NCBI GenBank assembly: GCA_029865345.1
Contig: JAOUHD010000020.1
Coordinates: 1-32,410, forward strand
DNA from: Nitrospira sp.
GTDB lineage: Bacteria > Nitrospirota > Nitrospiria > Nitrospirales > Nitrospiraceae
Reading direction: 5' to 3'
DNA: 32,410 nt
Shown here: piece by piece, positions 3,350-10,687 of the stretch
Layout: each line of letters opens with the position of its first letter
How positions within the stretch are numbered: the first letter of the stretch is position 1
Notes under the pieces: model-generated
Databases searched by the model: none
Told to the model about the DNA's origin: nothing
Seen by the model: only the letters and a program-made list of their open reading frames with translations
Translations under genes and position numbers: made by a program

Positions 3350-3736
3350 ATGGAACCACTATTTCTCACATTGGAGGAAGTCCTAGAGATCCACCGTGAT
3401 GAAATTGAACGGCATGGTGGGACGCTGGGGGTCCGTGACAATGGGCTGCTCGAATCTGCGGTCGCTACTCCTCAGTCCGGATTTGGTGGGCACTATCTGC
3501 ACGGTGATCTGTATGAAATGGCCGCAGCCTATCTCTTTCACCTTGTGCAAAATCATCCGTTCTTAGATGGAAATAAGCGGGTGGGGGCAGCCACGGCTCT
3601 TGTGTTTCTGACTATGAATGGCGTTGAAACAAAGATGACAAATCAGGTGCTGGTCGATATGGTGCTTGCAGTGGCCAAAGGGAAGATGGACAAACCGGCC
3701 ATCGCAGACTTCTTCCGCAAGCATTCCCGCTCGTAA
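3350..3736 (+). CDS. doc: Doc (death-on-curing) toxin, Fic fold
   Basis: This 128-residue protein has the usual length of Doc. It begins FLTLEEVLEIHRDEIERHGG and has the Doc-type LGVRDNGLLESAVATPQ stretch. The Fic-family active site is HPFLDGNKR (about residues 66-74) and matches the HxFx[DN]GNKR pattern of Doc. Phage P1 Doc phosphorylates elongation factor Tu and stops translation; the intact motif suggests this copy is active. It lies 3 bases behind its antitoxin gene and needs it to be tolerated. The downstream gap 3737-3929 separates it from a convergent toxin-antitoxin pair and holds no clear terminator. Confidence 0.92.
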   Translation: MEPLFLTLEEVLEIHRDEIERHGGTLGVRDNGLLESAVATPQSGFGGHYLHGDLYEMAAAYLFHLVQNHPFLDGNKRVGAATALVFLTMNGVETKMTNQVLVDMVLAVAKGKMDKPAIADFFRKHSRS

Positions 3737-3929: not shown

Positions 3930-4226
3930 TTACAGCAGGTAGCGGTCGATGTTGAGGGCTCCATGAAACACCCCAAGGATATCGATCGCGCCGGAAGTTT
4001 TGATCACGTAGGCGATTCGGTAGTGACCGTGCAGCAGGATGCGGATGTGCCGGTCTGGTCGTTGCCAGTACCGGTACCCTGATTCGGGGAACTCTCTGAG
4101 GATTTCGACTTTCCGGTAGAGCGTTTCAACGGTACGGGTTGCGGCGGCGGGATTGTCCTGCGTGATATAGTCGTGGATGTCACGCAGCCATCGCTCGGCT
4201 TCTGGCGTCCAGGTCAGTTCCGCCAT
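3930..4226 (-). CDS. ParE/RelE-superfamily toxin
   Basis: This 98-residue protein has the ParE-like layout. An N-terminal helical hairpin with WTPEAERWLRDIHDYI is followed by NPAAATRTVETLYRKVEIL, and then by the beta-sheet part with FPESGYRYWQRPDRHIRILLHGHYRIAYVI and DILGVFHGALNIDRYL. The R-x-L-x-x-[GH]-[HR]-Y-R-I-x-Y block is typical of ParE/RelE toxins. ParE members poison DNA gyrase and RelE members cleave mRNA; the sequence alone does not decide, although overall it looks nearer ParE. Its ATG lies inside the end of the antitoxin gene (13-base overlap), so translation is probably coupled. Confidence 0.85.
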   Translation of the reverse strand: MAELTWTPEAERWLRDIHDYITQDNPAAATRTVETLYRKVEILREFPESGYRYWQRPDRHIRILLHGHYRIAYVIKTSGAIDILGVFHGALNIDRYLL

Positions 4227-7356: not shown

Positions 7357-8373
7357 ATGAGAAACCTTCTCCTGCTCCTCGTTCTTGCCGCCTCACTCTT
7401 CGGCTGCAATCGCAGCGATCCGATCGTTCTGATCCAGCTCCATCCAAAGAATCCCGATATCATCTACGTTGCGACGAACGACTACATCTATAAGACCCGT
7501 GATGCCGGCCAGACATGGACAAACCTTTCTCAAGGAATGAGCTATTCCCGTGTGATCGCTATGGCAATCGATCCCGTTTATCCCGCGACTGTGTATGCGG
7601 GAACGAAGGGCGACGCCGTCTACAAAAGCCATGATGGCGGACAGCGCTGGATCTCGATGCGATCGGGGCTTGATGATGCGACCATTACGTCCGTGGTGAA
7701 TCAGTTCCTCTTTGATCCTGCCGACGCGCAGCACATTTTTCTCGCTACCACGATGGGTGTGTTTGAAACCAAGAACGGCGGCGAACAATGGACGAAGAAA
7801 ATGGAGGGTATGAAAGAAGTGTTGATGGTTGTGACGTTGGGCATGGATCCGACCAGGCCTTCCATTCTGTATGCTGGAACCAGCGGCGGCGTCTACAAGT
7901 CGATGGATCAGGCCGCACATTGGGTAAAAGTGAACAACGGGCTGGTGCCGCCGGACATGGTGAAAACCTCTCGGGCACTGAATGTCACTTCCATACTGGT
8001 CGATCCATACGAGCCTGATACCGTCTATGCTGCCACGCTTGCGGGGCTCTATAAGACAACGGATGCGGCCAAGGGCTGGAAACGAATCGGAGAATCGCTT
8101 GCTGATCAGATGATCATTGCCATGGTGCTCGACCGAACGCGTCGAGGCGTGATCTACATCACGGGACGGGATGGCGTGCATCGGAGTGAAGATGGTGGGG
8201 GCACGTGGGTGGTGCTCAACAAGGGGTTGGCGACCACCAACATCAGAACCATCGCACAAAGCGAAGCGGATCCAGGGGTGTTCTATGCCGGCACAAATGG
8301 GAGTGGTCTTTATCGCAGTAAGGATGCGGGGGAGAACTGGGAGCCGATGCCGGTGGTGGGAGGAAAACCTTGA
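7357..8373 (+). CDS. Lipoprotein with a seven-repeat BNR/Asp-box beta-propeller
   Basis: The ATG at 7357 gives 338 residues starting with a lipoprotein signal peptide (MRNLLLLLVLAASLFGC, lipobox LFGC, Cys17). An upstream extension would lie inside the repeat element and hide the signal. Seven Asp-box-like repeats follow at about 45-residue spacing: KTRDAGQTW, KSHDGGQRW, ETKNGGEQW, KSMDQAAHW, KTTDAAKGW, RSEDGGGTW and RSKDAGENW. Each blade also has a P-x-x-[IV]-[YF]-[AV] strand (DIIYVAT, TVYAGT, ILYAGT, VFYAGT). This resembles the sortilin/YCF48-like propellers. Such proteins sit in the periplasm as binding or assembly scaffolds; the partner is unknown. The gene ends 8 bases from a convergent gene. 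Confidence 0.85.
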   Translation: MRNLLLLLVLAASLFGCNRSDPIVLIQLHPKNPDIIYVATNDYIYKTRDAGQTWTNLSQGMSYSRVIAMAIDPVYPATVYAGTKGDAVYKSHDGGQRWISMRSGLDDATITSVVNQFLFDPADAQHIFLATTMGVFETKNGGEQWTKKMEGMKEVLMVVTLGMDPTRPSILYAGTSGGVYKSMDQAAHWVKVNNGLVPPDMVKTSRALNVTSILVDPYEPDTVYAATLAGLYKTTDAAKGWKRIGESLADQMIIAMVLDRTRRGVIYITGRDGVHRSEDGGGTWVVLNKGLATTNIRTIAQSEADPGVFYAGTNGSGLYRSKDAGENWEPMPVVGGKP

Positions 8374-8381
8374 GGGGAGGG

Positions 8382-9494
8382 CTATCGCCTCTTGCTATTC
8401 AAGTCAGAGTCTCCAATAGAGGCACCAACCCCTCGTCGTGGAACGGTTGAGGTACCTTCACGATTTTGTGCGTGGTCGACTTCGAACCCAGTGCTGCTGG
8501 ACATGGAGGTATCTTGCATATCCGTTCCAGGCCGATGGGGGAGCTGACTATCGTGAACATCCTCCCCTCTCCGCGGGCGAAGTGATTCGCCCACATTACT
8601 ATAGGGAGACACCGAGGCGCCGATATCCGCACCGAAGTTGGAATTCAACTTCGTATCTTCAATATCTCCTCCAATTCGTGAGCGCAGCGTCGTATCTTCT
8701 ATATCCATTCCCGTTGGGGCCGCTGAGGGCAGTTTCTTTGCATTGAACTCCTTTTTGATTGCTTCTTCCTCGTCCTGGATCTGTAGCCTGGCACGGCCGC
8801 TGCGTTCGTACTCGACCTCACCAAGGTTTTTCTGTGCCTCGTTCAATCTGTCGAGACGTTCATTGAGGCGAAAGAGATCTTCGCGCGCACGGGCAACTGT
8901 TCCTACGATTTCACTAAGTGTGAATTGACGCGCGAACGTGCCGAGCTTCGGGCCTCGTGCAGCCCCTCCACCTAAACCACCGCTTCCACTTCCATCGCCG
9001 GGACCGGTGCCTGGGCTTCCGTCTGCCCTGCTTCCGATGCCAAATCCTGCCGAATTGTAGATGCCTTTTTGTTGAACGGCTTTGAGAATGTGGTTTGCCT
9101 CATCGATGAGATCTACGACTTTATCAGGGGCATCCCCATCGGTCAGGCAGCACGAGACAAAGGTCCGGTAACGATCCGAAAATCTCGACGCTGCATTCTG
9201 CAGCTCCACGATTTTTATGGGGTCACGGTCGGGAAGTTCGAAACCCTGTCGGCGTGCCTTTTCCTTGAATGCTTCTACGGACTGTGTGTCGTAGAGCGGC
9301 TTGCATCCGGAGCCCTTTTTCGTTGCAATCTGTTGGTCTGGCGTCTTGCTCGAGCACCAATAGACCGGTGCCGGTTGGTTGAGCGGATTATCCGGATTGA
9401 AGTCCTTTCCATCGGCCTGTTCCAGGTAGAGGAACGGAAGGGTGAGGGACAGAAACGGTCCTATGTATGAGGAAAGCAAATAATTTCGAAGCAT
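8382..9494 (-). CDS. Exported protein of unknown function with C-terminal 13-residue repeats
   Basis: I do not recognise a family. From the ATG at 9494 there are 370 residues; a TTG at 9533 would add 13 more and bury the likely signal segment MLRNYLLSSYIGPFLSLTLPFLYLEQADG. Then come: an N-terminal domain with four cysteines (YWC, SGC, SCC), the first two around a DQQ and PLYD stretch; a Gly-rich linker (GDGSGSGGLGGGAARG); a charged coiled-coil (about residues 190-255, REDLFRLNERLDRLNEAQ and on); and a repeat tail (262-370). Export to the periplasm or envelope is likely. The gene is divergent from the dcw cluster. The gap 9495-9698 includes an AT-rich stretch near 9601-9622, but I could not fix a promoter for this gene. 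Confidence 0.75.
   Translation of the reverse strand: MLRNYLLSSYIGPFLSLTLPFLYLEQADGKDFNPDNPLNQPAPVYWCSSKTPDQQIATKKGSGCKPLYDTQSVEAFKEKARRQGFELPDRDPIKIVELQNAASRFSDRYRTFVSCCLTDGDAPDKVVDLIDEANHILKAVQQKGIYNSAGFGIGSRADGSPGTGPGDGSGSGGLGGGAARGPKLGTFARQFTLSEIVGTVARAREDLFRLNERLDRLNEAQKNLGEVEYERSGRARLQIQDEEEAIKKEFNAKKLPSAAPTGMDIEDTTLRSRIGGDIEDTKLNSNFGADIGASVSPYSNVGESLRPRRGEDVHDSQLPHRPGTDMQDTSMSSSTGFEVDHAQNREGTSTVPRRGVGASIGDSDLNSKRR
8385..8711 (-). repeat. Degenerate 13-residue tandem repeats within the exported protein
   Basis: The last 109 residues divide into units such as GMDIEDTTLRSRI, GGDIEDTKLNSNF, GEDVHDSQLPHRP, GTDMQDTSMSSST and a final SIGDSDLNSK, with shorter or longer degenerate units between. 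The consensus is G-x-D-[IMV]-x-D-[ST]-x-[LM]-x-S. Three units also keep a shared DNA core, GTATCTT followed two bases later by ATATC (plus strand near 8509, 8655 and 8694). This points to growth by duplication. Confidence 0.7.
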
Positions 9495-9735: not shown

Positions 9736-9760
9736 TGGGGAGAAGTGGAGGCGTGTGGGT
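9736..9760 (+). promoter_or_regulatory. MraZ-type operator: three TGGGN-like repeats
   Basis: TGGGG (9736-9740), TGGAG (9746-9750) and TGGGT (9756-9760) are spaced by exactly 5 bases each. E. coli MraZ binds TGGGN direct repeats with 5-base spacers upstream of the dcw operon. The site lies directly after the -10 element, covers the rsmH ribosome binding site and overlaps its start codon. Binding there should repress. The middle repeat deviates at one position. No mraZ gene is adjacent. Confidence 0.6.
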
Positions 9761-10687
9761 GAAAGTATCGCCAGTGAAAATTTGCACATCCCAGTACTCG
9801 GCCAAGAAGTCTGCTCTTGGCTTATTTATCAACAACCTACCACAATTGTCGATTGTACGGTGGGATATGGTGGGCATGCTGAAATGCTCTTAATGAGTAG
9901 CCCTGTTGAAACAAGGGTTGTAGGGCTGGACCAAGACTCTCAGGCCATTGAGTTCAGTCAGCGGCGCTTGAATCGATTCGGAGACCGCATTGTGTTACGG
10001 CAAGGAAATTATCGAGACTTAAAGTCACACCTTGCTGAAGCGGGTATCGCGAAGGTCGATGGTGTGTTGTTCGATTTTGGGGTTTCATCCCCGCAGTTGG
10101 ACGATCCCTTGCGAGGGTTCAGCTTTCAGCGAGAAGGTCCGCTTGATATGCGGATGGACCAAACGATTGGGACAACTGCCGCCGATTTGGTGAACGGTAG
10201 TCCCGAACATGAGCTTGCGGACATCATATTTCAGAATGGGGAAGAGAGGTATGCCAGGCGAATTGCTCGGGCCATCGTGCAGGAAAGGCAACGACAGCCT
10301 GTCATGACCACCGGAGTACTTGCCTCTATCATTGCTGGGTCCGTGCCGGCGTCTTATCGCCACGGACGGATTCATTGTGCCACGCGGACCTTTCAGGCAC
10401 TTCGCATTGCGGTGAATCATGAGCTGGATTTCTTGGAGCCATCGCTTCGAGATGCAACCGACGTGTTGGCTGTGGGGGGGAGGGTTTGCGCGATTTCTTT
10501 TCATTCCCTCGAAGACCGTATCGTGAAGCATACGTTCCGGTCTCTTGCTCAAGGGCCAGACGCCACCCTGTCGATACTCACGAAGAAACCGGTCCTTCCT
10601 TCGGAGGCCGAGTGCGAAGCAAATCCCCGATCACGAAGCGCTAAATTACGAGTCGCTGAACGTCAACCGAGGATGGGACTTTTATGA
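9755..10687 (+). CDS. rsmH: 16S rRNA (cytosine1402-N4)-methyltransferase RsmH (MraW)
   Basis: This 310-residue protein methylates N4 of C1402 in the 16S decoding centre using S-adenosylmethionine. Seen directly: HIPVLGQEV at the start, the SAM-binding DCTVGYGGHAEMLL (about residues 33-46), VVGLDQDSQAI, VLFDFGVSSPQLDDPLRGFSF (about 103-123), HCATRTFQALRIAVN and ISFHSLEDRIVK. The GTG at 9755 is the only reasonable start; its GGAGG (9747-9751) is unusually close, 3 bases away, and both lie within the TGGGN repeats. It is the first gene of the dcw cluster and overlaps ftsL by an ATGA. Confidence 0.96.
   Translation: MGESIASENLHIPVLGQEVCSWLIYQQPTTIVDCTVGYGGHAEMLLMSSPVETRVVGLDQDSQAIEFSQRRLNRFGDRIVLRQGNYRDLKSHLAEAGIAKVDGVLFDFGVSSPQLDDPLRGFSFQREGPLDMRMDQTIGTTAADLVNGSPEHELADIIFQNGEERYARRIARAIVQERQRQPVMTTGVLASIIAGSVPASYRHGRIHCATRTFQALRIAVNHELDFLEPSLRDATDVLAVGGRVCAISFHSLEDRIVKHTFRSLAQGPDATLSILTKKPVLPSEAECEANPRSRSAKLRVAERQPRMGLL

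Follow-up and report, generated by a model that had tools for sequence, protein, structure and literature searches.

The stretch of DNA analysed here (the window) comprises 32,410 nucleotides from Nitrospira sp. (assembly GCA_029865345.1, contig JAOUHD010000020.1) and carries on its minus strand an ORF for a putatively exported protein of 370 aa, which we call the repeat-tail protein (positions 8385..9494, with an ATG start and the stop codon at 8382-8384). The gene is flanked convergently by a plus-strand gene for a sortilin/BNR-type beta-propeller lipoprotein (7357..8373; Pfam PF15902, E = 1.7e-21, lipobox recognised by eye) and divergently by a plus-strand ORF (9755..10687) which, from its sequence and from synteny, we take to be rsmH (mraW), here the first gene of the dcw cluster. 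The order rsmH, repeat-tail gene, propeller lipoprotein, yajQ and transporter is constant in the loci that reach that far. Extra DNA separates the repeat-tail gene from rsmH in three genomes (G108, G155 and G193), with the propeller gene still adjacent, and in the seven genomes that we examined from another family (f3) the propeller gene is widely separated from rsmH or sits on a separate contig. Elsewhere in the window are two small ORFs, presumably of Fic/Doc type (3350-3736, plus strand) and of ParE/RelE toxin type (3930-4226, minus strand), both recognised by eye from their motifs.

Comparison with homologs showed that the N-terminus and the start of the repeat-tail protein are shared. Residues 1-29 (9408..9494, like all features of this protein on the minus strand) resemble a signal peptide, with a hydrophobic stretch followed by an A-x-A-like site, and the aligned homologs have a similar signal-like N-terminus; judged by eye, the protein looks exported through a Sec-type signal. 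In the AlphaFold2 model it begins with a folded part (residues 41-144; 9063..9374; block pLDDT about 73-91) made of helices and a small hairpin near C47 and C64, and these two cysteines as well as the vicinal pair C115-C116 are invariant in alignments A1 and A2. A Gly-rich linker of low pLDDT follows (residues 150-184; 8943..9047), shortened or absent in many relatives in the same alignments, and then come long helices (residues 190-252; 8739..8927; modelled as 190-223 and 229-252, block pLDDT about 83-91), which complete a helical bundle in the model. The last 115 residues (256-370; 8385..8729) form a conserved tail that is predicted to be disordered. An earlier note on this DNA, which had placed a repeat array at 8385-8711, was exact about the interval, which corresponds to residues 262-370.

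The presence of repeats was confirmed. In its literal form, the motif G-x-D-[IMV]-x-D-[ST]-x-[LM]-x-S of the earlier note occurs three times in the tail (at residues 262, 275 and 323) and four times when its last S is dropped, the corresponding expectations from 20,000 shuffled tails being 0.00005 and 0.00015, and a looser core of the type G-x-[DSE]-[IVLM]-x-x-[ST] is present in seven copies (0.2 expected from shuffles), starting at residues 262, 275, 288, 310, 323, 336 and 357. The proposed unit length of 13 residues holds for four of the six intervals, but the units are not evenly spaced (13, 13, 22, 13, 13, 21). Autocorrelation of the tail is raised at lag 13 (z = 4.4, P = 0.011 when corrected by the maximum across lags) and reaches its highest value at lag 48 (z = 4.7; not equalled in any of 3,000 shuffles), which is also the top lag in two distant homologs (z = 8 to 9). 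The tail consists of a 48-residue super-repeat of three cores and a spacer, present twice and followed by a terminal unit: module 1 (residues 262-309; 8568..8711; cores at 262, 275 and 288), module 2 (residues 310-356; 8427..8567; cores at 310, 323 and 336) and a partial module 3 (residues 357-370; 8385..8426), composed of the unit GxxIGDSxLN and a basic end. I360, G361, D362, S363 and N366 of this last unit are invariant across a 70-row alignment (A4) of the window protein and 69 of 71 translated loci, from which L143 and L192 were left out for want of an ATG; L198-L200 were not among the translated loci.

Similarity between the units at the DNA level, previously taken as a sign of recent expansion, was not borne out. 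Identical residues in different units share their codon as often as codon usage predicts (28 of 76 comparisons versus 26.3 expected), Tandem Repeats Finder reported no tandem repeat in the whole window, and the number of units, compared across relatives as the note had proposed, is essentially constant between species. Tail length is 113 to 120 residues in every row of the 70-row alignment; in a second form of the protein (form B, described below), 24 of 25 proteins have five to seven nine-residue units in tails of 128 to 138 residues, and the remaining one (L104) has two units in 101 residues. On these three grounds, recent expansion of the repeats was rejected. A second significant match to the tail is absent from the 16 genomes searched, so the tail is single-copy.

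Tail pLDDT is about 34-42 in the full-length AlphaFold2 model, built from the 70-row alignment, and prediction of the tail alone from 40 sequences (alignment A5, the window tail and 39 of the A4 tails) yielded no structure (pLDDT 53.5, pTM 0.11); regular strands appeared in neither run. Although predicted to be disordered, the tail is the best-conserved part of the protein, with a mean column conservation of 0.81 (0.89 in module 1), compared with 0.72 in both the N-terminal domain and the helices. Between species pS is near saturation over the three main regions (0.66-0.74), while pN takes its lowest value in the tail (0.109; N-terminal domain 0.151, helices 0.186), from which we judge that purifying selection acts on the amino-acid sequence of the tail. 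This applies above all to module 1, which has the lowest pN/pS (0.10), whereas module 2 (0.24) is no more constrained than the head. The earlier note had named pure disorder, with no repeat conservation and no such periodicity in any relative, as the outcome that would speak against its reading; disorder is indeed predicted, but periodicity and repeat conservation are both present in relatives, and the repeats have more order and conservation than first described.

A single core motif recurs across the family at many spacings. Iterative EM refinement, seeded with a loose core pattern that was defined after seeing the tails, found 190 units in 26 tails (24 family tails and those of two paralogs, with G196 omitted as a near-copy of G193), yielding the consensus G-x-[DSE]-[ILV]-[GQE]-x-[ST]; identically treated shuffled tails, a control that preserves composition but not the relatedness of the tails, gave 38 ± 8 units, with a maximum of 54 in 100 runs. 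Position 7 is Ser or Thr in 90% of the units and carries less information than position 1 (Gly) or position 4 (aliphatic). Core spacing differs by lineage, being 13, 13 and 22 in the form found in the window (form A), 9 and 10 in form B, and 15-16 in G193 and G196, and it is mixed within a single protein in G103 (13, 13, 13, 10, 10, 10). Units of the 9-10-residue form do not retain the second Asp. Few cores were found in some tails, namely four each in G116, G111 and G114 by the fixed pattern (G111 from a mis-cut tail) and four each in G108 and G193 by EM, close to the shuffled range of the fixed-pattern count. The tail thus contains a conserved, recurrent short motif inside a segment predicted to be disordered, as a motif array does. 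Solenoids keep a near-constant period, but docking motifs that act independently along a flexible chain are under no such demand; since the same core recurs at 9, 10, 13, 15-16 and ~22 residues, a motif array is favoured over a solenoid, and this is the chief argument for the reading that we prefer below.

The window protein has no Pfam or NCBIfam match that reaches the cut-off. Among 26 members scanned, the best E-values were 0.0028 for NCBIfam and 0.0053 for Pfam, with few members giving either match; the best value among 40 tails was 0.26, and no matching family was found in the PDB. Structure searches returned only generic helical bundles, mainly over residues 93-271 (Foldseek best E = 0.93; best Z = 8.5, the Z values lying within the range that the tool calls common for helical models), an outcome that does not prove a new fold. 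The four-helix arrangement of the head is a generic one, seen for example in the N-terminal domain of apolipoprotein E, to which we claim no relationship. Literature searches by subject and by locus-tag prefix gave no record on the repeat-tail protein among those listed, and the gene is not named in the accessible part of a transcriptome paper on N. moscoviensis (PMC6606698).

Profile searches found homologs in 167 of the 235 genomes of the order, all of them, among the matches listed, belonging to the family of the window (GTDB-like Nitrospiraceae), where 167 of 175 genomes have a match and 8 have none. The same search gave no homolog, among the matches listed, in 60 genomes from other families of the order. 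Within the genus the proportion is 77 of 79, and a phylum-wide search matched 108 of 395 genomes, again only in the window's family among the matches listed. Apart from one hit to Mediterraneibacter (L200; E = 1e-3 over 63 residues), which was dismissed as a chance match, and two records titled Nitrosospira, considered below, every named record belongs to Nitrospira or a relative, N. moscoviensis and Ca. N. defluvii among them. At 4 of 127 loci (L033, L099, L107 and L112) the target went unreported by tblastn with the window protein and was found by the profile. Repeat-tail proteins are an unnamed, lineage-wide protein family. A phage or plasmid origin was rejected, as no relative was found in the viral contigs, plasmids or phages searched.

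Most of the eight family genomes that gave no match are incomplete assemblies, but completeness reaches 95% or more in three of them (G185, G190 and G197). Two genomes, G072 (2.0 Mb; L119) and G156 (1.7 Mb; L207), have a broken copy of the gene, G197 (1.7 Mb; L206) has only a short remnant of it, and in G185 (1.8 Mb; L205) it is not recognisable; in all four the flanking genes are intact and remain next to each other. Thus, among family genomes of at most 2.0 Mb and at least 89% completeness, four of five have the gene broken or gone, the exception being G104, where the frame is open. NarH-like matches, none of which reaches the family cut-off, occur in these four small genomes and also in genomes of other families that lack the repeat-tail gene. 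Because such matches are found in genomes without the gene, the repeat-tail gene does not simply follow nitrite oxidation, and a simple link between the two was rejected.

Form B is present at 25 loci; it has the same locus and architecture as form A, ends in nine-residue units and is about 24-31% identical to the window protein. Both forms were seen at one locus when L031-L038 and the form-B loci among L098-L126 were set against the window. We assigned the A and B labels from the tail type and computed head trees without the tail and without L119, the gene of which is broken. Because the head tree splits A from B with one change (support 99) and the YajQ, BNR, RsmH and FtsI trees require five label changes each (97 loci holding all genes), 2 to 3 of which are forced by well-supported branches, these single-gene trees suggest that one form has probably been replaced by the other in place, as gene-sized exchanges. 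A single clade of B was rejected on the BNR tree (AU test, P = 0.005) in a subset of 48 of 120 rows of our choosing (all 25 B rows and 23 A rows). Sorting or differential loss of two ancient copies is a possible alternative.

The reading that we tentatively prefer, at somewhat short of an even chance, is that of an exported scaffold-type protein in which a disulphide-capable helical head would anchor or oligomerise and an intrinsically disordered tail would display a short linear motif (G-x-[DSE]-[ILV]-[GQE]-x-[ST]) as an array. Taken singly, the copies of the motif would bind weakly to a partner that is itself repeated in the cell envelope, possibly a periplasmic protein, an outer-membrane protein or the cell wall, and the tail would bind by avidity, gathering or tethering copies of that partner. 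The analysis shows the motif array, its conservation in the protein sequence, the predicted disorder, the varying spacing of a constant core and the presence throughout the family; binding, partner and head function are inferred, as is export, from the N-terminus read by eye. A repeated ligand site, one of the possibilities raised in the earlier note, fits best with the predicted disorder, the top conservation and the constant core at varying spacing; it should be borne in mind that AlphaFold2 can miss structure formed on binding, on oligomerisation or with metal.

One specific form of the docking-array explanation, to which we assign a low probability, would make the tail the ligand of the convergent propeller lipoprotein, which would read the G-x-x-I-x-x-[ST] units singly. 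Short peptides are common ligands of beta-propellers, and wherever a syntenic locus extends over both genes they are neighbours, including in G108, G155 and G193; its adjacency alone makes the propeller an obvious candidate partner. However, YajQ and the transporter are equally syntenic with the repeat-tail gene, propeller homologs occur in 12 of 12 examined genomes of other families, all without the repeat protein, and in several same-genus genomes the propeller is 83-88% identical to that of the window whereas the repeat protein is 25-27% identical, with no sign of co-divergence. We likewise regard as improbable a conditional folding of the tail into a beta-solenoid or beta-roll, whether brought about by calcium, by secretion or by oligomerisation. 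Such a fold would be consistent with the regular placing of Gly, aliphatic and Ser/Thr residues and with a strong periodicity that has a second, longer period (48 beside 13; 20 beside 10), but the repeat length is far from constant, with one core at 9, 10, 13, 15-16 and 22 residues and a mixture in G103, the second Asp is not retained in the 9-10-residue form, and the two AlphaFold2 predictions, which show neither a fold nor regular strands but could miss conditional folding, also weigh somewhat against the solenoid considered in the earlier note. The RTX beta-roll is built of tandem GGxGxDxUx nonapeptides, and in some lineages the repeat-tail proteins similarly combine putative export with Gly/Asp-containing repeats of about nine residues; the consensus of the 190 units is nevertheless different, the spacing runs from 9 to 22, Asp is not kept in the nine-residue units and no beta-roll is predicted.

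If the repeats were instead modification sites, for instance for O-glycosylation at the conserved Ser/Thr, the tail would be a stiff or protective stalk. The prevalence of Ser/Thr at position 7 and the linker-like composition agree with this, but a stalk would not need the Gly and aliphatic positions that outweigh position 7 in information, and no modifying enzyme was seen beside the locus; we give this explanation only a slight chance. It is unlikely, too, though worth weighing, that the protein is a surface-exposed adhesin, matrix component or receptor, its two forms exchanged in place under selection from outside by phage, a partner cell or a surface. The discord between the head tree and the four flanking-gene trees, the AU result and the decay or loss of the gene in small genomes would be in keeping with such a role; against it stand the strong purifying selection on the form-A tail, which has no sign of diversification, and differential loss of two ancient copies as an alternative to swapping.

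For the preferred docking-array scaffold, the nearest described mechanism is that of CsoS2 in alpha-carboxysomes. CsoS2 (PMC11365436) is a protein of about 90 kDa that binds Rubisco and shell proteins in the carboxysome, is disordered by AlphaFold and has a fixed set of repeats, those of the middle region containing (V/I)(T/S)G triplets, a Cys pair, Lys and Tyr, and its short repeated motifs bind shell proteins by valency. The repeat-tail protein similarly has a tail predicted to be disordered, with a fixed repeat set, short motifs that keep conserved residues despite the predicted lack of structure, and a conserved C-terminal peptide, but differs in its export-like N-terminus, folded helical head, motif and smaller size; its tail has no Cys and its core is not that of the CsoS2 repeats. 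No carboxysome genes were recognised among the syntenic neighbours. The repeat-tail protein is not a CsoS2, and the likeness is one of mechanism only; if the inference holds, the family would work like known multivalent disordered scaffolds. A bolder and rather unlikely version is that of a family-wide Nitrospira scaffold with a CsoS2-like tail outside the cytoplasm, which would organise envelope components, perhaps as a condensate or periplasmic lattice, and whose two ancient forms would swap at one locus between a propeller gene and the cell-division cluster. Bacterial effectors with arrays of short linear motifs, such as the Ehrlichia TRPs, also carry short motifs in tandem within disordered exported chains, but they act on animal hosts, a setting that has no counterpart here.

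Nitrospira are widespread nitrite oxidisers, including complete ammonia oxidisers, and their envelope proteins are little known. Nearly family-wide, absent from the sister families in the genomes searched and equipped with a predicted-disordered tail that is under the strongest selection in the protein, the repeat-tail protein qualifies as a good candidate for an envelope function that defines the lineage. If the tail is a docking array, it would offer a ready peptide bait for finding the partner. How two divergent forms came, apparently, to be exchanged in place is a further question that can be tested.

Three minor observations concern the locus and its relatives. Further homologs of the propeller lipoprotein (7357-8373), about 43-54% identical, are found elsewhere in many of the 21 genomes searched, so that the propeller lipoprotein itself forms a small gene family. 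Two records titled uncultured Nitrosospira (L151, CAADGK010000010.1; L194, CAADGJ010000280.1) carry the repeat-tail locus; these titles look wrong, L151 being placed inside Nitrospira on the propeller tree. Finally, at least two genomes (G021 and G107), and perhaps G103, encode a second, shorter paralog of the repeat-tail protein, located away from the main locus (L036:3642-4496, L211:2738-3733 and perhaps L212) and ending in a TGPEIG-type tail of 10-residue units.
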